Shown: one piece after another, positions 34,135-44,220 of the stretch
Layout of the letters: each line of letters opens with the position of its first letter
How positions within the stretch are numbered: position 1 is the stretch's first letter
NCBI RefSeq assembly: GCF_000317895.1
Contig: NC_019567.1
Coordinates: 1,860,001 to 1,924,000, forward strand
Source: Bdellovibrio bacteriovorus str. Tiberius
Lineage (GTDB): Bacteria > Bdellovibrionota > Bdellovibrionia > Bdellovibrionales > Bdellovibrionaceae
Direction: 5' to 3'
Length of the DNA: 64,000 bases
The notes under the pieces: generated by a model
The model's database searches: none
What the model saw: only the letters and a program-made list of their open reading frames with translations
Told to the model about the DNA's origin: nothing
Position numbers and translations under genes: made by a program

Positions 34135-35061
34135 CTACAGACCTTTCAGGATGTCATTCAGATGCTGAATGTGTTGCAACGGGTGTTTGCCAACGTGATC
34201 GATCATCAGTTTTTTCGCGGCTTCGGCTTTGGCAACGCCTTCAAAAGTAATCAGGCGGTCCATCGCATTGGCTGATGAAACCAGAACCGCCAAAGGATCC
34301 ATATCCTTTTCGCGCATTCCTTTCGGGCCCGTGCCGTTGATGGTTTCTTCGTGCTGACCGATGATATTGATGACCGTCTGGTCAAAGTGCTTTTTATCCT
34401 GCACTTTTTGCGCGCCTTCAATGGGGTGCTTTTTCCACAATGCCAGATCTTCCGGGCTCATGGTGGCTAGCGGCTGTGACAGGTTCAAAGTGCTGTGGTG
34501 GTGACCATAGTCATGCAGCAAAGCGCCCAAAGTCAGAAGCTGCGTTTTCTTCGGATCATTAAGACCCAGTTTCTGCGCCAGTGCAATCGACAGGGTCGCC
34601 ACAGTCACGCCGTGGTGGGACACCGTCTTGTCCGTGTTCTCGATGTTCATCACCGCCGACATCGCCTGGGCGTTGCTCATGATAAAGTTCACATACTTGC
34701 CTGCGGCATCTTTGCAATAGTTGTAGCTTTCAACGTTCTCGGGATTTTCAAAAACCTCTTCCGCGTTGTTTTGTTGCGAACCCTGAATGATGTCGGCGCG
34801 GGTTTGGATGTCCTTCCCGGTGGTGTCGTCATAGGCCGTTTCAATATTCTTTTGCAGGTAACTGCGGTAGCTGACCTCTTCGTCGGTAAGGATGTACATT
34901 TTGCGCAGTTTTTTGTCCTTAAGGCGCTTCAGGCGTTCCCCCTCAAAGCTGTCGCCGCGACGAAGGTAGAGTATCATCTTGTCGTTGATTTTAACGTAAG
35001 CGTTGAAGTCGATCTTTTGATCGCCGCGCAGGGTGCTTACACGTATAGAAACATAATCCAT
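34135..35061 (-). CDS. HD-GYP-type phosphodiesterase with altered GYP motif (308 aa)
   Basis: Residues 1-70 form a small N-terminal domain (DFNAYVKIN, LYLRRGDSF). The HD-GYP domain follows with metal ligands His150, LLHDYGHH (His183-Asp184), His212 and QHEE (His237). Where the GYP loop should read GxGYPxGL it reads NGTGPKGM, so the tyrosine is missing. From memory, the crystal structure of Bdellovibrio Bd1817 was described as an HD-GYP protein lacking this tyrosine, and this looks like that protein; I cannot check. Predicted role: c-di-GMP hydrolysis or sensing. Divergent from the Hpt-like gene with 35 bases between. Confidence 0.88.
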   Translation of the reverse strand: MDYVSIRVSTLRGDQKIDFNAYVKINDKMILYLRRGDSFEGERLKRLKDKKLRKMYILTDEEVSYRSYLQKNIETAYDDTTGKDIQTRADIIQGSQQNNAEEVFENPENVESYNYCKDAAGKYVNFIMSNAQAMSAVMNIENTDKTVSHHGVTVATLSIALAQKLGLNDPKKTQLLTLGALLHDYGHHHSTLNLSQPLATMSPEDLALWKKHPIEGAQKVQDKKHFDQTVINIIGQHEETINGTGPKGMREKDMDPLAVLVSSANAMDRLITFEGVAKAEAAKKLMIDHVGKHPLQHIQHLNDILKGL

Positions 35062-35096
35062 TGCCTCTGTATCCTTCGATTGCTATCTTTGAGTGG

Positions 35097-35612
35097 ATGT
35101 CGATTGATAAAGAAATTGTAGAAGATTTTGTGAACGAGTCAAAGTCCTTGATTGAAGAGTTGTTGGACCTTCTCGAAGGTATTGAAGGCGACTTTTCTCA
35201 AGTTCGTAAACTTGCGGATTATGGCAATAACGTCGATCGAATTATGGGTGGCGCCAAGAGTCTTGCCCTGATGGCACCACCTGAACATGCATTGCACATG
35301 ATTTCGGACTATGCGGCTCTGTGTAAAGCTGTCGGTTACAAGGCGTCCCAGATCACTGGCAATGAACAGTTCTTTCATGTTTGTGTGGGTCTTTTGCTGG
35401 ACGCCACAGAGACTTTGGAAACCCTGCTTGAAAATATCCACAAAGATTCAAGCTTCCTGCGGGAAACGATCCCTCAGGCCTTTATCGAAAGACTTCGCTG
35501 GGTTTCAAATCAGTTCAATGAATCCTACAGTGCCAGCGTTGATACCGGTATGGCGCCGTCGAAGATGAATCAGTTTGAAATTGATGACCTGTTGAAAAAA
35601 CTGGGACTTTAG
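35097..35612 (+). CDS. Hpt-like (CheA P1-like) protein lacking the phospho-accepting histidine (171 aa)
   Basis: The N-terminus, EDFVNESKSLIEELLDLLEGIE, is the classic first helix of a CheA-type histidine phosphotransfer domain. The phospho-site helix reads NNVDRIMGGAKSLAL, where the family has (A)HxxKGGAxxL. Aspartate 47 stands at the histidine position and Lys is replaced by Met. It therefore cannot act as a normal phosphorelay donor and may bind a receiver domain as a decoy or scaffold (inference). Start ATG 35097 rather than the longer upstream frame, because the added residues overlap the divergent promoter region. Pairs head-to-head with the HD-GYP gene. Confidence 0.75.
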   Translation: MSIDKEIVEDFVNESKSLIEELLDLLEGIEGDFSQVRKLADYGNNVDRIMGGAKSLALMAPPEHALHMISDYAALCKAVGYKASQITGNEQFFHVCVGLLLDATETLETLLENIHKDSSFLRETIPQAFIERLRWVSNQFNESYSASVDTGMAPSKMNQFEIDDLLKKLGL

Positions 35613-36658
35613 TTTCCCAGTTTCTCAAGGCTCCACAAAGCCAGTTCCCCTAGCTTTTCATGTTCGCTCAGTGCTTGGATTTCCGGGCGCAGCTCTTTCA
35701 AACCCCGGTTGACGGCAACAATCATGGCATTGCGTTTTAAACCGAATGATCCCGCCCGGGCCAGCGGTGTTCCCAGAAAATCCCGACTGATTTTTTTGCC
35801 GGAAGCCGACAGAATATAGCGCAGGTCCTCGATAAGCAGAGCTTCTTCCGATTCATTTAAGCTAAGACTTGTTTCGATGGAAAGCTGGCCTTTAAAGGCC
35901 TTCTGATTCCACGGGCACACGGTTTGGCACAGATCACAGCCAAAGAACCAATCGCCAATTTGCGAGCGCAGGCTTTCTTCCGGGATCTGGCGGGATTCAA
36001 TAGTCAGATACGAGATGCATTTGCGTGCATCCATCTTGCGCGGCTCAATCAGCGCGCCGGTCGGGCAGATATCCAGACAGCGGGTGCAGGTGCCGCAGAA
36101 ATCCGGCAAGGGTGCAAACTCGGTGTGAATTTTCAGGGATGTGTAGATCTCGCCAATGAAAAACAGGCTGCCTTCTTTCGGGTGGATCAGGCAGGTGTTC
36201 TTTCCCACCCAGCCAAGGCCGGCTTGTTTGGCAAGGTCCCGCTCCAGCACCGGGCTGCTGTCGGTGAAGGCCAGGAATTCTTCCTCGGGGAAAAGCTTTT
36301 GTAAATCTGTGCACAAAGACTTCATGCGATCCTTGAACCAGAAATGATAATCCATGCCTTGCGCATACAGGCTGACGCGGGCTTGTTTCAGCGGGAATTC
36401 AGATTTTTTCTCGGGATGGGGAAAGTAAGGCATGGCAAACACCAAAGCGCTCTGGGCCCGGGGCCATTTGCTTTGGGGGTTTTCCTTGATCTGGGCGTGC
36501 TCGGCCAGATAGGTCATGTCTCCGTGCAGTCCCTGGTCAATCCATTCCCGGTAGAAATCAAAGCTTAAGGGTTTGCTCAATGGCGCAAAACCGAAGTGGG
36601 AAAATCCCAGATCGGTCAAGGTTCCATCGATAAGAGATTTCATCTCCTGTGGCGTCAC
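35609..36658 (-). CDS. queG: Epoxyqueuosine reductase QueG (349 aa)
   Basis: It carries out the last step of queuosine synthesis in tRNA, using cobalamin and two [4Fe-4S] clusters. The ferredoxin-like motif CGTCTRCLDICPTGAL and the second set in FGCDLCQTVCPWN bind the clusters. The N-terminal FSHFGFAPLSKPL and YHFWFKDRM segments are typical, and the length is normal. Start taken at GTG 36658. It is divergent from the CCA-adding-type gene 48 bases away, another tRNA-related function, and its stop codon overlaps that of the Hpt-like gene. Confidence 0.93.
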   Translation of the reverse strand: MTPQEMKSLIDGTLTDLGFSHFGFAPLSKPLSFDFYREWIDQGLHGDMTYLAEHAQIKENPQSKWPRAQSALVFAMPYFPHPEKKSEFPLKQARVSLYAQGMDYHFWFKDRMKSLCTDLQKLFPEEEFLAFTDSSPVLERDLAKQAGLGWVGKNTCLIHPKEGSLFFIGEIYTSLKIHTEFAPLPDFCGTCTRCLDICPTGALIEPRKMDARKCISYLTIESRQIPEESLRSQIGDWFFGCDLCQTVCPWNQKAFKGQLSIETSLSLNESEEALLIEDLRYILSASGKKISRDFLGTPLARAGSFGLKRNAMIVAVNRGLKELRPEIQALSEHEKLGELALWSLEKLGN

Positions 36659-36706
36659 GCGAACAAACTCTTTCTTTCAGGCCTGTCTTTTTCTACACTC
36701 TAGGAT

Positions 36707-37909
36707 GTGAATCAGGTGCAAAGTCTTATCGAATCTCATCCTCACTGGCCGGCTGTGGAGTCAATTTACCACAAGCTGCAGGCTCATGGCTATAAGGCCT
36801 TTTTGGCTGGCGGCTGCGTGCGCGACGCCCTGTTGGGCATTACCGCCAATGATTTGGATCTGGCGACGGATGCGACCCCCGAAAATGTTGAATCCCTGTT
36901 TAGTAAAACCGTCAATGTCGGCAAAAGTTTCGGGGTTATGCGCGTGATCGTGGAAGGCGCGGATATCGAGGTCGCCACCTTCCGCAATGACGGCACCTAC
37001 AGTGACGGGCGCCGCCCGGAAAATGTGGTTTTCTCAAGTCCTGAAGAGGATGCCGAGCGCCGGGATTTCACGGTGAATGCTCTTTTTTATGATTTGACCA
37101 CGCACCAGGTGCTGGATTTTGTCGAGGGCCAGAAAGATCTTAAAGCGCGCATCCTGCGCACCGTAGGGCAGGCCGAGCGTCGTTTTGAAGAGGACAATCT
37201 GCGCCTGCTGCGAGCAGCCCGTTTTTCCGCCCAGCTGAATTTTGAACTGGAACCGGCCAGCTTTGCCGCCGTGAAAAAAATGGCCCCTAAAGTGAAGTCT
37301 GTCAGTGGTGAACGCATTCGCGATGAAATGACCAAGCTGCTGAAAACAGAACACGCCAGTCGCGGTCTGCAGGTCATGAAAGACTCAGGCCTGATGAATG
37401 TGTTGTTCCCGTTTCGTCTGCGCAAAAATGAATGGGTGAAGAACCCGCTGGCCACCGAATCCTGGCAGCGTCTGGCGCTGTTTGTGCGCGGGGCTCAGGG
37501 GACGGAGCTTTCCCCGGTTTTGGATATGCTGAAGCTTTCCAGCCGGGATCGCCGGGCGATTGAGGATGCCTGGAAAATCTGGCAGGATCCGCAACTGGTG
37601 TTGAAGAACTCTTTGGGAAAACAGCTGCAGATGCTGGCCAAAGAGGGTGTTGTTTTTGCTTTAAGAATCTTACTGTCCGAAGCGGTTGAAAAAGCTGCCA
37701 TTGAACTTTTGCTGGCGGAATGGAAAAGCTGGCAGGAAATGCTGCCTCGGCCGTTTTTAAACGGCGAGGACCTGAAGGGGCGTCTCAGTGGGCCGGCCAT
37801 TGGGGTGTGCCTGGACAAGGCCTTTGAACAGCAGCTGGAACGCCAGCTGCAAAGCCGCGATGAAGCGCTGTTGTGGCTGAAAAAATATCTGGAAAGAGAG
37901 TCATCTTAA
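36707..37909 (+). CDS. tRNA CCA-adding enzyme / poly(A) polymerase family nucleotidyltransferase (400 aa)
   Basis: Class II nucleotidyltransferase. The head domain has AFLAGGCVRDALLGITANDLDLATDATP, with the DxD metal pair, then FRNDGTYSDGRRP and the template-side EEDAERRDFTVNALFYD. The neck follows with EDNLRLLRAARFSAQL. These features are shared by CCA-adding enzymes and PcnB; the missing HD domain and the size leave both open. The start is GTG 36707 with TAGGA upstream. The RDD membrane gene starts immediately after its stop codon (TAA-ATG), so they are one operon. Confidence 0.88.
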   Translation: MNQVQSLIESHPHWPAVESIYHKLQAHGYKAFLAGGCVRDALLGITANDLDLATDATPENVESLFSKTVNVGKSFGVMRVIVEGADIEVATFRNDGTYSDGRRPENVVFSSPEEDAERRDFTVNALFYDLTTHQVLDFVEGQKDLKARILRTVGQAERRFEEDNLRLLRAARFSAQLNFELEPASFAAVKKMAPKVKSVSGERIRDEMTKLLKTEHASRGLQVMKDSGLMNVLFPFRLRKNEWVKNPLATESWQRLALFVRGAQGTELSPVLDMLKLSSRDRRAIEDAWKIWQDPQLVLKNSLGKQLQMLAKEGVVFALRILLSEAVEKAAIELLLAEWKSWQEMLPRPFLNGEDLKGRLSGPAIGVCLDKAFEQQLERQLQSRDEALLWLKKYLERESS

Positions 37910-38512
37910 ATGGAATCCGCATTTGTTCCCAGCACCTGGAGACGTTTTTTCGCCTATGGCATTGATCAGATTATCAGTCTGCCGTTTTACCTGCCATTTG
38001 CCGGGGTGTTTTTAAGACTGATCTTTACTGAAGATGACGTCATCGTGACGTTGTTGCAGCTGTTTTTGCTGTTTTTGATTCCTGCAGTGTATGAATTCGT
38101 CTTTCTGGTGATGATGCAGGCCACGCCAGGCAAATGGTTTATGGGGCTTAAAGTGGTTCCGGCCACAAACTATACCGAAAAGCTGCACTGGTCGCAGTGT
38201 CTGTTGCGCCCATTGACGGGGCGTTTGAGTTTCTTTTTCTCATGGGGAATTTATGCCCTGGCGTTTTTCCGCTATGATCGCACGCATCTGTGTGATTGGG
38301 CGGCGGAAACCCGTGTGGTGCAGGATAAGCCTCGCGCGACTCAAGCACGCATGCGCTGGGTGTTGGGACTGGTATTTGTGTGTCTTTATTCCTATGAAGG
38401 ACTGGCTTCCGCCAAAATGATTCTGAAGTCCATTGACTGGTCCGAGCGTCAAGCCAACCTGCGTGAGGTGTTTGATCTTCAGGATTATATGGATGTGACG
38501 TTCGAAGATTAG
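37910..38512 (+). CDS. RDD-family membrane protein (200 aa)
   Basis: The RDD domain begins TWRRFFAYGIDQIISLPFYL, with the R...D pattern, and contains two further helices in LLQLFLLFLIPAVYEFVFLV plus the family motif ATPGKWFMGLKVV. A fourth helix lies at RWVLGLVFVCLYSYEGLA. RDD proteins are thought to act in transport or as stress-related membrane proteins; none is defined here. It is translated directly after the nucleotidyltransferase gene with no spacer. Confidence 0.85.
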   Translation: MESAFVPSTWRRFFAYGIDQIISLPFYLPFAGVFLRLIFTEDDVIVTLLQLFLLFLIPAVYEFVFLVMMQATPGKWFMGLKVVPATNYTEKLHWSQCLLRPLTGRLSFFFSWGIYALAFFRYDRTHLCDWAAETRVVQDKPRATQARMRWVLGLVFVCLYSYEGLASAKMILKSIDWSERQANLREVFDLQDYMDVTFED

Positions 38513-38520
38513 ATCGCTGA

Positions 38521-39912
38521 TTAAGCGGCCGGTTTCCATTTCTTGAAAATGGTCGTGGTCATCAACAGATCGACGTTGCCGGATCCAGACAGGGCCTCGT
38601 CGCGCAGATCCTGAATCGCCTGGGTCGCTGTGCGGGCTTGCTTTCCACCTTCAGTCAAAGCGGTCATTTCATGGAAACGATAAGCAAACCCCAATAGTTT
38701 GCCAAACTCAGAAATATCCGCATTAATAAGCTTCTTAGGGAAGCCTGTGCCGGCGCCATTTTCACGGTGCTGGCCGATGGCATCGGAAATCTCCTGCGGC
38801 AGCGGTACTTTTTTAGCTTTCACCATGACCACCGAGCGCTCGGGGTACAGCTGATACTGGCTGATCTCTTCCGGGGTGTAGTCATTCACGGGTTTCGAAC
38901 CCACGGTGACGGGCATCTGGGACAAGCCAATATTGTGCAGAAGGCCTGCGATGGCGGCAGTTTCGCGTTTGTCGGTACTCCAGCCCAGCAATTGGGCGAA
39001 ATAAGCGGCGTATGCCGACAGACAGATGCAGTCATGGTAAAGGGTTCGCACATTGCCTGAGAAACGGAAGACCTCATCAAAGATCTCCTGCGGGGGAAGA
39101 TCTTTGGTCAGTTCAAAGTCGGCAACGATGGATTTGCATTTATCAAGGATCACTTTGCCTTCGGAATAGTCCGTGGAAGCACCATTCAGGAACTGCGCCA
39201 TGATTTCATAGATGACTTTTTTCGAGCGGTGGAATTTTTCTGTCATCGAGATCGGCAGGGGCATGTTGCGCATGCTCATCACCGTGCGGGCGTATTCAAA
39301 GAACGGTTTCATCTGGGTCTTTTTGATGTACATCTGCTGTTTTAAGGCATTGAACTTGTCCAGATGCTTTTGGTCGACGATGTCGCCGGATTTACGCATC
39401 ATCACGGATCTGTGATTGGCGGGCAGGTGGACAAAGACATCAAAGTTGATGTTGGTTCCGGCGTCCATATCGCGCAGATCCACGGGCATTAGCGCTGTGA
39501 TCGGGATCTGGTCGCCTTCCATTTCAATCGGGGCCAGTTGCAGAACCATGTCGGAAATGAATTCACGGTCGAAATTGATGTGCATGATTTCATTCGCACC
39601 GTTTTTCTTCACGACGGAGAAATCCAAAGGGGCGGCGGAGGAATGCAGAACGATGACCGGGCAGTCGGGATAGTTCATTTTGGTGGACTGCACCCATTCA
39701 TTGGTCAGATTGGTGCCGTCCTGTCCGTCGACAAGGGCTAAAATAGGTTTGAAGTTTTCGGAAGTGCCGTGATCCAGGGCTTCGTCGATGGATTTGAAGT
39801 GCTTGAGCTGGTACGGATAGTAACCCTTCAGGATAGAGGTGATGGCTTCCCAGAAGGAGTCACGGGGACTCCCGATGAGAACATCAACCGTCTTTCCTGA
39901 AGTGGAACTCAT
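38521..39912 (-). CDS. Receiver-like plus degenerate HD-GYP signalling protein (463 aa)
   Basis: Three parts can be seen. Residues 1-130 resemble a receiver domain (DVLIGSPRDSF, ILALVDGQDG, CPVIVLHSS). Residues 150-215 are a small domain similar to the N-terminus of the 34135-35061 protein (NFDVFVHLPANHRSVMMRKS). Residues 280-440 are an HD-GYP domain in which the HD pair is HN (His326-Asn327) and GYP is GFP (GTGFPKK). Loss of the metal-binding Asp argues against normal c-di-GMP hydrolysis, so it may bind or relay the signal. Its start overlaps cheX by 4 bases; cheY is upstream, all transcribed together. Confidence 0.85.
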   Translation of the reverse strand: MSSTSGKTVDVLIGSPRDSFWEAITSILKGYYPYQLKHFKSIDEALDHGTSENFKPILALVDGQDGTNLTNEWVQSTKMNYPDCPVIVLHSSAAPLDFSVVKKNGANEIMHINFDREFISDMVLQLAPIEMEGDQIPITALMPVDLRDMDAGTNINFDVFVHLPANHRSVMMRKSGDIVDQKHLDKFNALKQQMYIKKTQMKPFFEYARTVMSMRNMPLPISMTEKFHRSKKVIYEIMAQFLNGASTDYSEGKVILDKCKSIVADFELTKDLPPQEIFDEVFRFSGNVRTLYHDCICLSAYAAYFAQLLGWSTDKRETAAIAGLLHNIGLSQMPVTVGSKPVNDYTPEEISQYQLYPERSVVMVKAKKVPLPQEISDAIGQHRENGAGTGFPKKLINADISEFGKLLGFAYRFHEMTALTEGGKQARTATQAIQDLRDEALSGSGNVDLLMTTTIFKKWKPAA

Positions 39913-40409
39913 TGCTGCACCGAAATCTCCACATAGAAAGTGGAGCCGTTCGTCAGGTTGAAGGGGATGACGAGTGTGGCACTTTTATCAGCGTGGGTGA
40001 TCTTGAAATCACCGGAAATCACGGTTGGAATTGCCATCTCGAAGTTGTAACCCAGTTGATTCAGAGTTGTCTTGGCAGAACCGTAAATCATGTTGGTCAT
40101 TTCACCAACGGCGTCCGACACATCACCATTGATGGAGGTGTGCTTTTCGCCCAGCATGTTCTCAAGAATGTGGAAGATACTGTCTTTGCCATAAGAGATC
40201 AGCAAAGTGCCTTTCAAAGGAGGCGCAACCATACCGACCATGCCGGCGATTTCCCCTTTAAGCACGAATTGCGGCTCAATGAAGGGCTTGCCAGGTGTTG
40301 CATCGGTCTGAGCGATGGTTTTCAGGGTCTTGATAACGCCTTCGACGAAAGCATTGATCAAGCGCTTGTCAAACAGGGGATTGATAGCTTCTTTTGGTGC
40401 TGCAGACAT
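39909..40409 (-). CDS. cheX: CheX-like CheY-phosphatase domain protein (166 aa)
   Basis: The CheX/CheC/FliY family dephosphorylates CheY-P through a Glu-Asn pair. Here it is in DVSDAVGEMTNMIYGSAKTT (Glu103, Asn106). Flanking family features are INAFVEGVIKTLKTI at the N-terminus and GLKGTLLISYG-like strands (LKGTLLISYGKDSIFHILEN). The protein is cytoplasmic and probably dimeric. It lies 21 bases after cheY and overlaps the HD-GYP-like gene at its end, so the CheY signal, its phosphatase and a c-di-GMP-type domain are produced together. Confidence 0.88.
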   Translation of the reverse strand: MSAAPKEAINPLFDKRLINAFVEGVIKTLKTIAQTDATPGKPFIEPQFVLKGEIAGMVGMVAPPLKGTLLISYGKDSIFHILENMLGEKHTSINGDVSDAVGEMTNMIYGSAKTTLNQLGYNFEMAIPTVISGDFKITHADKSATLVIPFNLTNGSTFYVEISVQQ

Positions 40410-40430: not shown

Positions 40431-40856
40431 TTAGGAAGCTTTTGCTTGCGCAGAAGGGTTGTGTTTGGCCCAAACGCGTTCCATCTTGCCCTTCAGAGTG
40501 GCAGAGTTGAACGGTTTAACCACGTAGTCAGAAACGCCGGCTTTAGCGGCTTCCAGGATGTGCTTTTGCTCGGACTCTGCAGTCACCAGCATGAATGGCA
40601 CAGACTTAGTGCGGGGATCGGCTTTGCAGGCCTTCAAAAGGTCGATACCCTGCATTCCGGGCATATTCCAGTCCGAAATGACAAAGCCGTAAGGCTGGCC
40701 TGCATCATGAGCGGCCTGGATCATCGGCAGGGCCGTTTTACCGTCATCAGCTTCCTCTACGTTGGTGTAGCCAAGCTCATTTAGCACTTTTTTAATGATT
40801 TTTCGCATAGTTGCGAAGTCATCAACGACCAAAAACTTCGTATTTGTGGGAAACAT
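40431..40856 (-). CDS. cheY: CheY-like response regulator (141 aa)
   Basis: A single receiver domain. It has the acidic pair VVDDFATMRK (Asp12, Asp13), the phospho-accepting Asp62 in VISDWNMPGMQG, the switch Thr in LVTAES, and the conserved Lys in VVKPF. The sequence VDDFATMRKIIKKVLNELGY is very close to flagellar CheY. It should bind the motor switch or another target when phosphorylated. ATG 40856 has AGGAG five bases upstream. A FliA-type promoter lies 42-68 bases upstream, which ties the operon to motility. Confidence 0.93.
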   Translation of the reverse strand: MFPTNTKFLVVDDFATMRKIIKKVLNELGYTNVEEADDGKTALPMIQAAHDAGQPYGFVISDWNMPGMQGIDLLKACKADPRTKSVPFMLVTAESEQKHILEAAKAGVSDYVVKPFNSATLKGKMERVWAKHNPSAQAKAS

Positions 40857-41065: not shown

Positions 41066-41455
41066 ATGCTCAGAGATGTCCTGATTCAAAAAGGTCTTTC
41101 AAATAGAGAGGCAGAAGTTGCTGAACTTGTGTCTAAAGGCTTGTCCAACAAGGAAGTTGCGAACCAGCTTTTTGTAACTGAGAAAACAGTTAAATTTCAC
41201 CTCACAAACATCTACAAAAAAATGAATGTGAAGTCTCGTGCACAGTTGATCGTATGGTGCTTGCCTCACCTGGGCTTCGTTGAAACTGAAGTTCGCGCTG
41301 AGAACAACAACCAAGCAGCTGCTGCAACTGCATTCAATAACAATGCAACACAAACGATCCCAGCTGGATCTGCGACTGTTGCAGGTACTACAACTCTACC
41401 AGGTAGCGGTTTGAACCGTGGCGGTAACTCCGATATTGGTATGGGCGGCATCTAA
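41066..41455 (+). CDS. LuxR/GerE-type HTH protein with low-complexity tail (129 aa)
   Basis: Residues 1-70 are a complete LuxR C-terminal DNA-binding domain: LSNREAEVAELVSKGLSNKE, ANQLFVTEKTVKFHLTNIYK and KMNVKSRAQLI. There is no N-terminal receiver or ligand domain, so it is a stand-alone HTH. The last 50 residues are low in complexity, rich in Ala, Asn, Thr and Gly, with no predicted structure. The ATG has GGGAGGGAG upstream and a terminator follows, so it is monocistronic. It is divergent from cheY, and its target genes are unknown. Confidence 0.88.
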   Translation: MLRDVLIQKGLSNREAEVAELVSKGLSNKEVANQLFVTEKTVKFHLTNIYKKMNVKSRAQLIVWCLPHLGFVETEVRAENNNQAAAATAFNNNATQTIPAGSATVAGTTTLPGSGLNRGGNSDIGMGGI

Positions 41456-41537: not shown

Positions 41538-42008
41538 TTGGCTGCTTCAAAACCCGTCTCATCATCTCAAGTGGTAATGACTCAATTGGTTCTTCCTTCC
41601 CATACCAACTCTTTGGGAAGTGTCTTTGGCGGAACGATCATGTCCTGGATCGATATCTGCGCCGCGATCTGCTCACAACGACATTGTAACAAGGAAACCG
41701 TCACGGCCAGTATTGACCGTTTGGATTTCGTGGCACCTGTTTACAAGGGCTGGGTGGTAAATCTGAAGGCCAGCGTGAACTACACTTCCAGAACGTCAAT
41801 GGAAGTCGGGGTTCGTGTGGATGCAGAAAATCCAAAAACCGGAGAGTCCTTCCATACGGCTTCTGCGTATCTGACTTTTGTGGCTTTGGGCTCTATGGGA
41901 AAACCAACAGAAGTTCCGGGCTTGGTGCTGGAATCCGACGAAGACAAACGCCGTTTCGAACAGGCGAAAAAACGTCGCGAGATTCGCCTGCAGAATAAAA
42001 CCAGATAA
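41538..42008 (+). CDS. Hot-dog fold acyl-CoA thioesterase (156 aa)
   Basis: A YciA/ACOT-type thioesterase that hydrolyses acyl-CoA to free acid and CoA. The signature is LPSHTNSLGSVFGGTIMSWID, with the Asn, Gly and Asp of the hot-dog active site, then ASIDRLDFVAPVYKGWVV and SMEVGVRV. A charged C-terminal helix (DEDKRRFEQAKKRREIRLQ) is typical of the larger members. Start appears to be TTG 41538 with AAAGGGG upstream; the frame further up has no better start. Cytoplasmic. Confidence 0.9.
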   Translation: MAASKPVSSSQVVMTQLVLPSHTNSLGSVFGGTIMSWIDICAAICSQRHCNKETVTASIDRLDFVAPVYKGWVVNLKASVNYTSRTSMEVGVRVDAENPKTGESFHTASAYLTFVALGSMGKPTEVPGLVLESDEDKRRFEQAKKRREIRLQNKTR

Positions 42009-42105: not shown

Positions 42106-44220
42106 TTGAAATGTTCGGGCCCTGGGTTAGAAAATACTGTGGGGTCAGAATATCCGGTTAATCCATTTGGCGAATACGCAAACATCAGTTTCATGGTTAA
42201 GGCCACGTTGGGCTTCGATTGGTCCAAAACTGAACTTGGCCCCATTGAAAATTGGGATTCCGGCCTTATCAATTCTTTGCGCATAGTATTTAGTTGTCCC
42301 GTGGGGATGTACTGCACTTGGGGACCCGAGCGTCGGGTCTTTTACAACGATGCCTATGCTCCGATTTTAAAACATCGTCATCCGCGGGCATTGGGGTCGC
42401 CTCTTCGTGAAGTGTGGCCTGAGGTTTGGGATCAGGTGGATGCCATTGCCAGCACTGTTGAATCCGGCGGTGTCGTCCTTGAGTCTGACGTGCAGTTCGA
42501 CATCGAAGTCGATGGCAAGCCTCAGGGCAATTACTACACCTACGGAAATTCGCCACTGTTTGATTCCGCAGGAAAAATTTCAGGAATGTTGTGCACAATT
42601 CTGGATACGACAGTTTCCGTAACAAGAAATCAAGCAGCCGAAGAAAGTCTGGCCAGATCCAATCAAGAGGTCCGCGCTGAGCGCCGAAAACTGCGTTCTA
42701 TCCTGGAAAAAGCCCCGATTGCCATGGCGGTTCTGGACGGGCCCGAGCACCGTTTTGCAATGGTGAATGATTCTTACCGGGAACTTTTTCTGGGGGACTG
42801 TGATGTGTCCGGGCAAAGAATGAAAGATGTTTTTCCAAAAACGGAAGATATCGGATTGATTGCGCAACTGGATGACATTTATCGAACAGGAAAGGTTTTC
42901 GAAGCCAGAAATTTTGAAGTTCGTGATCGCCGGGCCGACGGAGTGGAATTTTCTGTCTTTGTTGATGTGGTCTATCAGCCGATTTATGATTTTAACGACG
43001 AAATCGAAGGTCTTGTTCTTGCCGCCAATAACGTCACTGAACAGGTGATGGCAGAGCGTGCTTTGCAGTCAGCCAAAGAGGCCGCTGAAAATGCCAATCA
43101 GGCGAAATCAGCGTTTCTGGCCAATATGTCTCATGAAATCCGCACTCCTTTGGGGGTTATTCTGGGCTTCTCGGAAATCATCGGCACACAGGATCTGGAT
43201 GAAGAGGATCGTAAAAAATACTTCGAAATCATTCATCGCAATGGCATGTCGCTGACTCGAATCATTGATGACATTCTGGATCTTTCCAAAATCGAAGCGG
43301 GCAAGTTTGAAATCGAAAACAAACCGGTCCGACTGAAAAAACTTCTTCAGGAAGTTCTGACCATGTTCTTTGATCAGGCTTCGCGAAAAAGTATTTATCT
43401 GAATTATGATTTGGCCGAGATCGGCAATCTGGTGATTTTGTCGGATGTCGTTCGCATTCGTCAGGTGCTGGTGAATCTTATCGGGAATGCGATCAAATTC
43501 ACGCTGAAGGGTTCGGTAAAGGTTTCCTGCCGGGCTGAGCAGGTGAATGGTGTGCGCAAAAGAATAACCTTCAGTATCGAAGACACCGGTATCGGTATGA
43601 CGACAGAGCAGGCGGATCGTCTGTTCCAGCCGTTCACTCAAGCTGACGCCACCTCAACCCGCCGCTTTGGCGGGACCGGATTGGGACTGGCGCTTTCCCG
43701 AAATCTGGCCCGAGCCCTCGGGGGGGATGTCAGAATTGCTCACTGCGAACCTCATAGGGGATGCACGTTTGAGTTTTCCTTTGAGGCCGAGGACGCCAGT
43801 CCCGGTGCCGCCACGGTTTTGGAAGGTGTCGAGGTCGAGACTGAAAATCCTTTGGCGGGTGTGCGAGTTCTGGCTGTGGATGATTCGGCGGACAACCGCG
43901 AGCTTATCAGTAAAATCCTCAGCAATGCGGGGCTGGATGTGACTGAAGCTGAAAGCGGTGAAGAAGCTTTGAATCAGGCCTTTAAGTCGCGTTATGATCT
44001 GGTTCTGATGGACATTCAGATGCCGGGATTGGATGGGTTTAGCACGCTGTCCGGGCTTCGCAAGCAGGGTTTTCAGGGGCCGATTATCGCCCTGACTGCA
44101 CACGCAATGCGGGAAGATCGTGATCGGGCCTTTGCGGCTGGATTTGCAGATCACCTGACAAAGCCGATCAATTCAAAGCTTTTGCTTCAATCGATTCAGT
44201 CGCACCTGCGTTTGGCTTAA
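42106..44220 (+). CDS. PAS-domain hybrid histidine kinase with C-terminal receiver (704 aa)
   Basis: Order of domains: an N-terminal PAS-like sensor (DWSKTELGPIENWDSGLI, CTWGPERRVFYNDAYAPIL, about residues 45-190), a second PAS (about 205-330), HisKA with ANMSHEIRTPLGVILG (His near 343), and HATPase with VNLIGNAIKF, DTGIGM and GGTGLGLALSR. A receiver follows with VLAVDDSADN and DLVLMDIQMPG (Asp near 635). There are no membrane segments, so it is a soluble sensor. Start is uncertain: TTG 42106 is used; a methionine at 42193 would cut into the sensor. No partner regulator is adjacent. Confidence 0.88.
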   Translation: MKCSGPGLENTVGSEYPVNPFGEYANISFMVKATLGFDWSKTELGPIENWDSGLINSLRIVFSCPVGMYCTWGPERRVFYNDAYAPILKHRHPRALGSPLREVWPEVWDQVDAIASTVESGGVVLESDVQFDIEVDGKPQGNYYTYGNSPLFDSAGKISGMLCTILDTTVSVTRNQAAEESLARSNQEVRAERRKLRSILEKAPIAMAVLDGPEHRFAMVNDSYRELFLGDCDVSGQRMKDVFPKTEDIGLIAQLDDIYRTGKVFEARNFEVRDRRADGVEFSVFVDVVYQPIYDFNDEIEGLVLAANNVTEQVMAERALQSAKEAAENANQAKSAFLANMSHEIRTPLGVILGFSEIIGTQDLDEEDRKKYFEIIHRNGMSLTRIIDDILDLSKIEAGKFEIENKPVRLKKLLQEVLTMFFDQASRKSIYLNYDLAEIGNLVILSDVVRIRQVLVNLIGNAIKFTLKGSVKVSCRAEQVNGVRKRITFSIEDTGIGMTTEQADRLFQPFTQADATSTRRFGGTGLGLALSRNLARALGGDVRIAHCEPHRGCTFEFSFEAEDASPGAATVLEGVEVETENPLAGVRVLAVDDSADNRELISKILSNAGLDVTEAESGEEALNQAFKSRYDLVLMDIQMPGLDGFSTLSGLRKQGFQGPIIALTAHAMREDRDRAFAAGFADHLTKPINSKLLLQSIQSHLRLA

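Follow-up and report, generated by a model that had tools for sequence, protein, structure and literature searches.

In the genome of Bdellovibrio bacteriovorus str. Tiberius, two HD-GYP-fold proteins, here termed A and B, are encoded close together in the 64,000-nt stretch of DNA that was analysed (the window; contig NC_019567.1, positions 1,860,001 to 1,924,000). With moderate confidence, both are read as non-catalytic components of a CheY/CheX phospho-signalling module in which they would regulate the phosphorylation of CheY; in the case of A, non-catalytic means at least not cleaving cyclic diguanylate (c-di-GMP). A is encoded next to, and divergently from, a small helical protein that resembles a histidine phosphotransfer domain and has no phospho-accepting histidine (pseudo-Hpt hereafter), and B is the last gene of a cheY-cheX-B operon (coordinates in Table 1).

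The open reading frames (ORFs) of A and B are about 3.5 kb apart, and their products are indeed related HD-GYP proteins, as an earlier interpretation made from the letters alone (the sequence-only reading) had proposed. Pfam HD_5 was found well above its cut-off of 27.2 bits both in A (residues 140-283, 50.4 bits, E 2.7e-13) and in B (residues 276-441, 127.2 bits), and the pairwise alignment of the two shows 25% identity across 156 residues (E 2e-10). A is the orthologue of Bd1817, the crystal sequence of which (3tm8) it matches from residue 1 to 308 (E 8.4e-198, PDB sequence search); it is 96% identical to the copy in another genome (G028). B has no close solved relative among the PDB, its best sequence match again being Bd1817 (E 6.3e-9). 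The AlphaFold2 (AF2) model of B (mean predicted local distance difference test score [pLDDT] 86.4, 9 sequences) comprises a receiver-like domain (residues 7-129), an N-terminal domain (NTD, about 139-215), and the HD-GYP-fold domain. Bd1817 entries topped both structure searches with this model (3tmd: Z 19.7, root-mean-square deviation 6.0 Å, 284 residues), residues 139 to 460 being aligned to the crystal chains and the NTD thereby covered; canonical HD-GYP structures were matched as well (4mcw, Z 17.6; 4r8z, Z 16.9).

For residue conservation, identical proteins were counted once, and members scoring below 200 bits (A family) or 100 bits (B family) were left out. This left 56 A proteins of the order. 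In A itself, the HD pair is retained and the tyrosine of GYP is missing (GTG-P, a gap rather than a substitution), which agrees with the sequence-only reading, but the decisive changes are E238, N265, R269, and E274, residues of Bd1817 that are named in PMC3774798. Compared with the ligand set H...HD...H...HH...D, E238 occupies the position of the second His of HH and N265 that of the last Asp. Position 238 is Glu in 54/56 and position 265 Asn in 55/56 order members; of the 20 A-like proteins with the highest scores outside the order, 19 have Glu at position 238, and position 265 is Asn in 13, Cys in 5, Ser in 1, and Asp in 1. As Glu at position 238 and the replacement of the last Asp persist throughout the order and largely throughout the phylum, the odd site of A is old. 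Loss of the tyrosine is narrower, many distant A relatives having GFP or GYP.

The residues that A has kept could also be explained by A being a working metalloenzyme on another substrate, with H150/H183/D184/H212/H237, E238, and Asn/Cys 265 forming an altered di-iron site gated by a closed lid, and with B being a separate pseudoenzyme. H150, H212, and H237 are present in 56/56 and H183 and D184 in 55/56 A proteins of the order (X in the other), H237 and D184 persist in 20/20 A-like proteins outside it, and a di-iron centre is reported for the Bd1817 crystal. On the other hand, 74 of the 76 A-type proteins examined have Asn, Cys, or Ser instead of the last Asp, and Bd1817 is reported to be inactive on c-di-GMP with its lid fixed shut. 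A metalloenzyme of this kind is conceivable, if rather unlikely.

The CheY/CheX module was suggested by the gene neighbours. The start codons of A and pseudo-Hpt are separated by 35 bp. The scan of the window's proteins gave no Pfam match for pseudo-Hpt, but CheA P1 domains are the best structural matches of its AF2 model (pLDDT 86.9, 43 sequences; 1i5n: Z 14.4, 125 residues aligned, 2.5 Å), and Foldseek placed CheA P1 at rank 1, albeit with an E value of 0.061. Because the mere arrangement of helices in a bundle can bring Z to 13-14, the assignment as a P1-like helical bundle rests on structure plus profile: in a comparison with CheA P1 domains taken from two neighbouring clusters, hhalign yielded 69% (E 4.3e-5), and 20 column-shuffled templates yielded at most 0.74%. 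A PDB profile search with pseudo-Hpt returned nothing significant, CheA P1 2ld6 being second (E 0.61). The position of the phospho-His is Asp in 59/61 and Glu in 2/61 family members, that is, none has the phospho-accepting residue. The C-terminal peptide, QxEIDDLLKKLGL, resembles the CheY-binding tail of CheZ and the N-terminus of FliM. Weak CheZ matches in 3/7 relatives examined map only to positions 176-202 of the 203-position CheZ profile, and the best member scored 14.5 of the 30.7 bits of the Pfam cut-off, in the C-terminal tail only. A Pfam scan of 43 members found CheZ in 10 (best 0.034) and Hpt in 4 (best 0.021), among 52 weakly matching families; the C-terminal 25 residues alone found no match, and a search of the bacterium's own genome for CheZ found none.

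Pseudo-Hpt and A travel together. The pseudo-Hpt gene is divergent beside A in 44/56 A loci, and a profile search detected it in 46/98 order genomes, 45 of which have A above 200 bits, while in the remaining one (G083) A is partial and lies where a contig begins; it was found in 0/44 order genomes without A. In genus g2, five genomes have neither pseudo-Hpt nor A and the sixth has both.

B, in turn, is tied to cheY and cheX. Its relatives were divided into 24 close family members (B1) and 8 more distant ones (B2), and B follows cheY and cheX as the third gene in 23/24 B1 loci, the sole other locus being interrupted by a contig end. Of the B2 genes, 5/8 adjoin cheX and/or cheY (L025, L028, L029, L030, and L123). 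The CheX protein combines the Pfam CheX match with the catalytic Glu...Asn motif, E103 and N106 being present in 36/36 relatives, and D12, D13, D62, T92, and K114 of CheY are conserved in 33/33. CheX is scarce, with 1-2 copies per genome in 8 genomes searched. In three further loci (L129, L134, and L138), cheY-cheX lies near pseudo-Hpt/A and B was not found at the expected place; in L157, cheX alone is present at a contig end.

Whether A/pseudo-Hpt and B/CheY-CheX form one system is less evident from the window itself. They could be two unrelated systems that are 3.5 kb apart in this family by chance, as housekeeping genes lie between them and some genomes have one without the other. This is countered by loci in which cheY and/or cheX adjoin pseudo-Hpt and an HD-GYP-fold gene (L159, L195 [longer as L221], L198, L208, L211, L218, and L219), and coincidence is thus judged unlikely. 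In L159, cheX-cheY adjoins pseudo-Hpt/A. Outside the order, 20 A-like loci were taken from the top of the match list, which biases the adjacency rate upward; in 16/20, A and a pseudo-Hpt match share one short stretch. Within these 20, cheY is beside pseudo-Hpt in L195, L198, and L211, and cheX is beside A in L195, L198, and L208, followed in L208 by cheY. In the longer stretch L221, pseudo-Hpt-cheY runs divergently from A, and cheX and a full cheA come next; in L214 pseudo-Hpt/A adjoins a REC-Hpt-HATPase-CheW kinase. In L218 and L219, the genes are arranged as HD_5 gene-cheY-pseudo-Hpt-cheX, and the HD_5 proteins (L218:2501-3574 and L219:2585-3622) carry AH or SH where HD would be expected, with GYP intact.

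Several observations weigh against a common CheY/CheX module with non-catalytic A and B. In the genus, queG, pcnB, and an RDD gene separate A/pseudo-Hpt from cheY-cheX-B, and the link between the two halves therefore rests on other lineages. Pseudo-Hpt does not adjoin A in 12/56 A loci and is missing from 8 A-bearing order genomes; outside the order, it is on a different contig from A in many genomes, which makes the link to A looser, although in the three such loci that were examined (L218, L219, and L220) it is still located between cheY and cheX, with A ∼2.3 kb away in L220. Moreover, cheY and/or cheX occur near A without a B there in L129, L134, L138, and L157, the B2 loci L026 and L027 have neither cheX nor cheY within 1.5 kb, and the pair is ∼4 kb off in L108. 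Finally, the resemblance of pseudo-Hpt to the CheZ tail is sub-threshold, and the metal ligands retained by A may leave catalysis on another substrate possible.

The metal site of B is altered as well. The sequence-only reading had pointed to HN in place of HD and GFP in place of GYP; both are present, but GFP had to be discounted as a sign of loss, since it is found in relatives with every metal ligand intact (e.g., L027 and L030), Phe being frequent in canonical relatives too. Decisive instead are D294, N327, Y356, R383, and Y411: of the seven ligand positions (D294, H326, N327, Y356, H382, R383, and Y411), two are kept, and the lysine of HDxxK is absent. N327 and Y356 are invariant in 24/24 B1 proteins. 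As B2 relatives mostly keep the canonical ligand set (Asp at position 327 and His at position 356, each in 8/8), the state of B1 is probably derived from a canonical one. A third set of proteins (L063 and its relatives from other genomes, L178-L184 and L190) has other ligand replacements and is separate from B1. Its member L063 (G000:C1:1846568-1848016), encoded ∼12 kb before the window, is a degenerate receiver-like/NTD/HD-GYP protein with TD for HD, TH for HH, and Glu for the last Asp.

These residues bear on the roles that had been proposed from the sequence alone, namely, an enzyme acting on c-di-GMP for A and a receptor of c-di-GMP for B. A does retain the HD pair, and degenerate signalling domains can turn into receptors, as is reported for CdgA (PMC3271064). 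However, A is Bd1817, for which no detectable phosphodiesterase activity and no binding of c-di-GMP are reported (PMC4159591, PMC3774798; PMC8177086), and B has lost the HDxxK lysine together with 5 of 7 metal-ligand positions. An enzyme/receptor pair acting on c-di-GMP is, thus, highly improbable. What survives of the proposal is the division of labour as such: A and B likely have different roles, given that the active-site changes fixed in the two differ, as do the partner genes conserved beside them. In PMC4159591, the regulatory role of Bd1817 is called still to be revealed.

That the small domain preceding the HD-GYP fold is common to A and B was confirmed. The NTD profiles of the two families were aligned by hhalign with 96.2% probability (E 2.6e-9, 69 columns), compared with less than 1% for three control pairings, and the alignment of the B model to Bd1817 includes this domain; the possibility of unrelated N-terminal domains, which had been raised alongside the claim, was not borne out. 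The domain is, however, not special to the pair. The paralogues L062 and L063 align with it too, and a review describes it in both Bd2325 and Bd1817 (PMC10482364). Being found in further HD-GYP paralogues, it is a common front end and does not single out A and B as a recent pair. Between the helical linkers of the two proteins, no match was obtained (hhalign 0.19%). A multiple alignment of the NTD put the L159 row in the wrong place and was not used further.

Residues 7-129 of B have a receiver fold but not the phosphorylation set of a receiver. hhalign of the B1 receiver profile against the CheY family found no match (0.38%), and the assignment therefore rests on the AF2 model and the matches to PDB receivers. 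The Asp pair is replaced, and Ile is found at the position of the CheY Lys, in a register that relies on this weak 0.38% alignment; D62 is retained in 23/24 B1 rows, the remaining row being a gap.

The notion that A and B are paralogues decaying differently was contradicted by phylogeny and selection. An HD-GYP-domain tree was built from 65 rows, including 14 A rows (every fourth only) and 20 B1 rows (L002, L005, L012, and L024 left out). A groups with Bd2325-like canonical proteins, and B1 with canonical REC-like/NTD/HD-GYP proteins, with B2, and with the third set; each of A and B1 forms one clade at 99, and two B2 rows, L026 and L027, were placed on the A side. The tree thus does not place A and B as sister paralogues, but its deep branches are supported at only 81-85 in the Shimodaira–Hasegawa-like approximate likelihood ratio test. 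In the bacterium's own genome, A matched, apart from itself, a single gene among the matches listed, that of L062 (E 3.7e-21). Pairwise ratios of nonsynonymous to synonymous substitution rates (dN/dS) to the two nearest genomes are 0.027-0.032 for A and 0.050-0.063 for B, which indicates that neither is decaying and that both are under purifying selection. Thus, despite the catalytic residues missing from A and B, the idea that they are decaying relics is hardly credible in view of dN/dS of 0.03-0.06 and substitutions fixed over whole clades.

From the folds (models and profiles), the residue losses and their fixation, and the conservation of operon and neighbours, we infer the following contacts, direction of control, and output for the CheY/CheX module. 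CheY, with its full set of phosphorylation residues, would carry the phosphate, and CheX, with its catalytic Glu and Asn, would remove it. Pseudo-Hpt should be unable to hand on phosphate because Asp occupies the phospho-His position; it would probably dock CheY via its P1-like face and C-terminal helix, either presenting or sequestering it. A would act together with pseudo-Hpt, and B with CheX and CheY via its receiver-like and NTD/HD-GYP-fold domains. Between them, A and B may set the duration of CheY phosphorylation or the location of the complex. More tentatively, a Che-derived branch may exist in Bdellovibrionota, in which CheY and CheX are combined with pseudo-Hpt and, recurrently, with non-catalytic or altered HD-GYP-fold regulators of the lifetime of the CheY phosphate.

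New here are the order-wide and largely phylum-wide fixation of the odd residues of Bd1817 and its pseudo-Hpt/CheY/CheX context. On the reading proposed here, HD-GYP-fold proteins whose metal sites are altered or broken (A; B1; L218 and L219) recur beside one signalling gene set. If the proposal is correct, folds of second-messenger enzymes were turned into regulators of CheY phosphate lifetime, Bd1817 among them, and a bacterial pseudo-Hpt is kept under selection. It would give Bd1817, a structure without known function since 2011, a testable setting; its prediction is that the place to look for the odd HD-GYP proteins of these predators is the CheY/CheX phospho-circuit and not c-di-GMP turnover. 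Searches for HD-GYP with CheX, CheY, or Bdellovibrio, for pseudo-HPt, and for degenerate HD-GYP did not reveal this link in titles and the beginnings of abstracts, which does not establish its absence from print.

Further genes lie near the cheY-cheX-B operon. Upstream of cheY, a small LuxR-type (GerE) protein of 129 amino acids is encoded (41066-41455, +), which is, together with a thioesterase-like gene (41538-42008), conserved beside cheY-cheX in most loci with cheY-cheX near B. A 704-amino-acid ORF near cheY (42106-44220, +) reads like a putative PAS hybrid histidine kinase that ends in a receiver. Among the papers searched, none was found on Bd1822, and a literature search for Bd1818, Bd1819, Bd1820, Bd1823, Bd1824, and Bd1825 gave one Bdellovibrio paper, in which an RNA-seq table lists Bd1820 as poly A polymerase.

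Table 1. Coordinates (positions in the window) of A, pseudo-Hpt, the cheY-cheX-B operon, and their landmarks.
Feature	Position	Strand	Description
A	34135..35061	-	308-aa Bd1817 orthologue; NTD, helical linker, HD-GYP-fold; 3tm8 match, HD_5
A GTGP	34324..34335	-	GYP without tyrosine; GFP or GYP in many relatives from other genera
A N265	34267..34269	-	At position of last metal-ligand Asp; N in 55/56 of order
A H183-D184	34510..34515	-	HD motif retained; each in 55/56, X in other
A N-terminal domain	34837..35061	-	Residues 1-75; profile match to B domain, 96%
Pseudo-Hpt	35097..35612	+	171-aa CheA-P1-like helical bundle with CheZ-tail-like C-terminal helix; divergent from A
Pseudo-Hpt D47	35235..35237	+	At phospho-His position; placed on CheA phospho-His by hhalign
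Pseudo-Hpt C-terminal peptide	35568..35609	+	NQFEIDDLLKKLGL; conserved; sub-threshold CheZ matches in relatives
B	38521..39912	-	463 aa; pseudoenzyme with receiver-like, NTD, and HD-GYP-fold domains; ends the cheY-cheX-B operon
B HD-GYP-fold domain	38590..39087	-	HD_5 276-441, E 7.1e-37
B H326-N327	38932..38937	-	HN replacing HD; N in 24/24 B1, D in 8/8 B2
B shared N-terminal domain	39268..39495	-	Residues 140-215; hhalign profile match to A domain
B receiver-like domain	39526..39894	-	Residues 7-129; (beta-alpha)5 in AF2 model, PDB receivers Z 14-16
CheX-family CheY phosphatase	39909..40409	-	PF13690 2.5e-21; 4-nt overlap with start of B
CheY-type single receiver	40431..40856	-	PF00072 6.1e-26

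Among known systems, Bd1817, the structure of which was solved in 2011 (PDB 3TM8, 3TMB, 3TMC, and 3TMD), is closest, A being its orthologue. With canonical HD-GYP phosphodiesterases (PmGH, 4MCW; PA4781, 4R8Z; Bd2325), A and B have the fold in common, but A is without the last Asp and the second His, and B is without 5 of 7 ligand positions. Pseudo-Hpt has the fold and register of CheA P1/Hpt domains (1I5N, 3KYJ, and 1TQG), from which it differs by Asp or Glu replacing the phospho-His in 61/61 members and by the absence of kinase domains. An Hpt fold without the phospho-His is also a feature of plant pseudo-HPts such as AHP6; these belong to a different kingdom and have different partners, and no relation is claimed. 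Compared with CheZ, the tail of pseudo-Hpt resembles the C-terminus but gives no significant match, whereas among the CheX/CheC/CheZ phosphatases the CheX of the window is a CheX-family protein with an intact motif.

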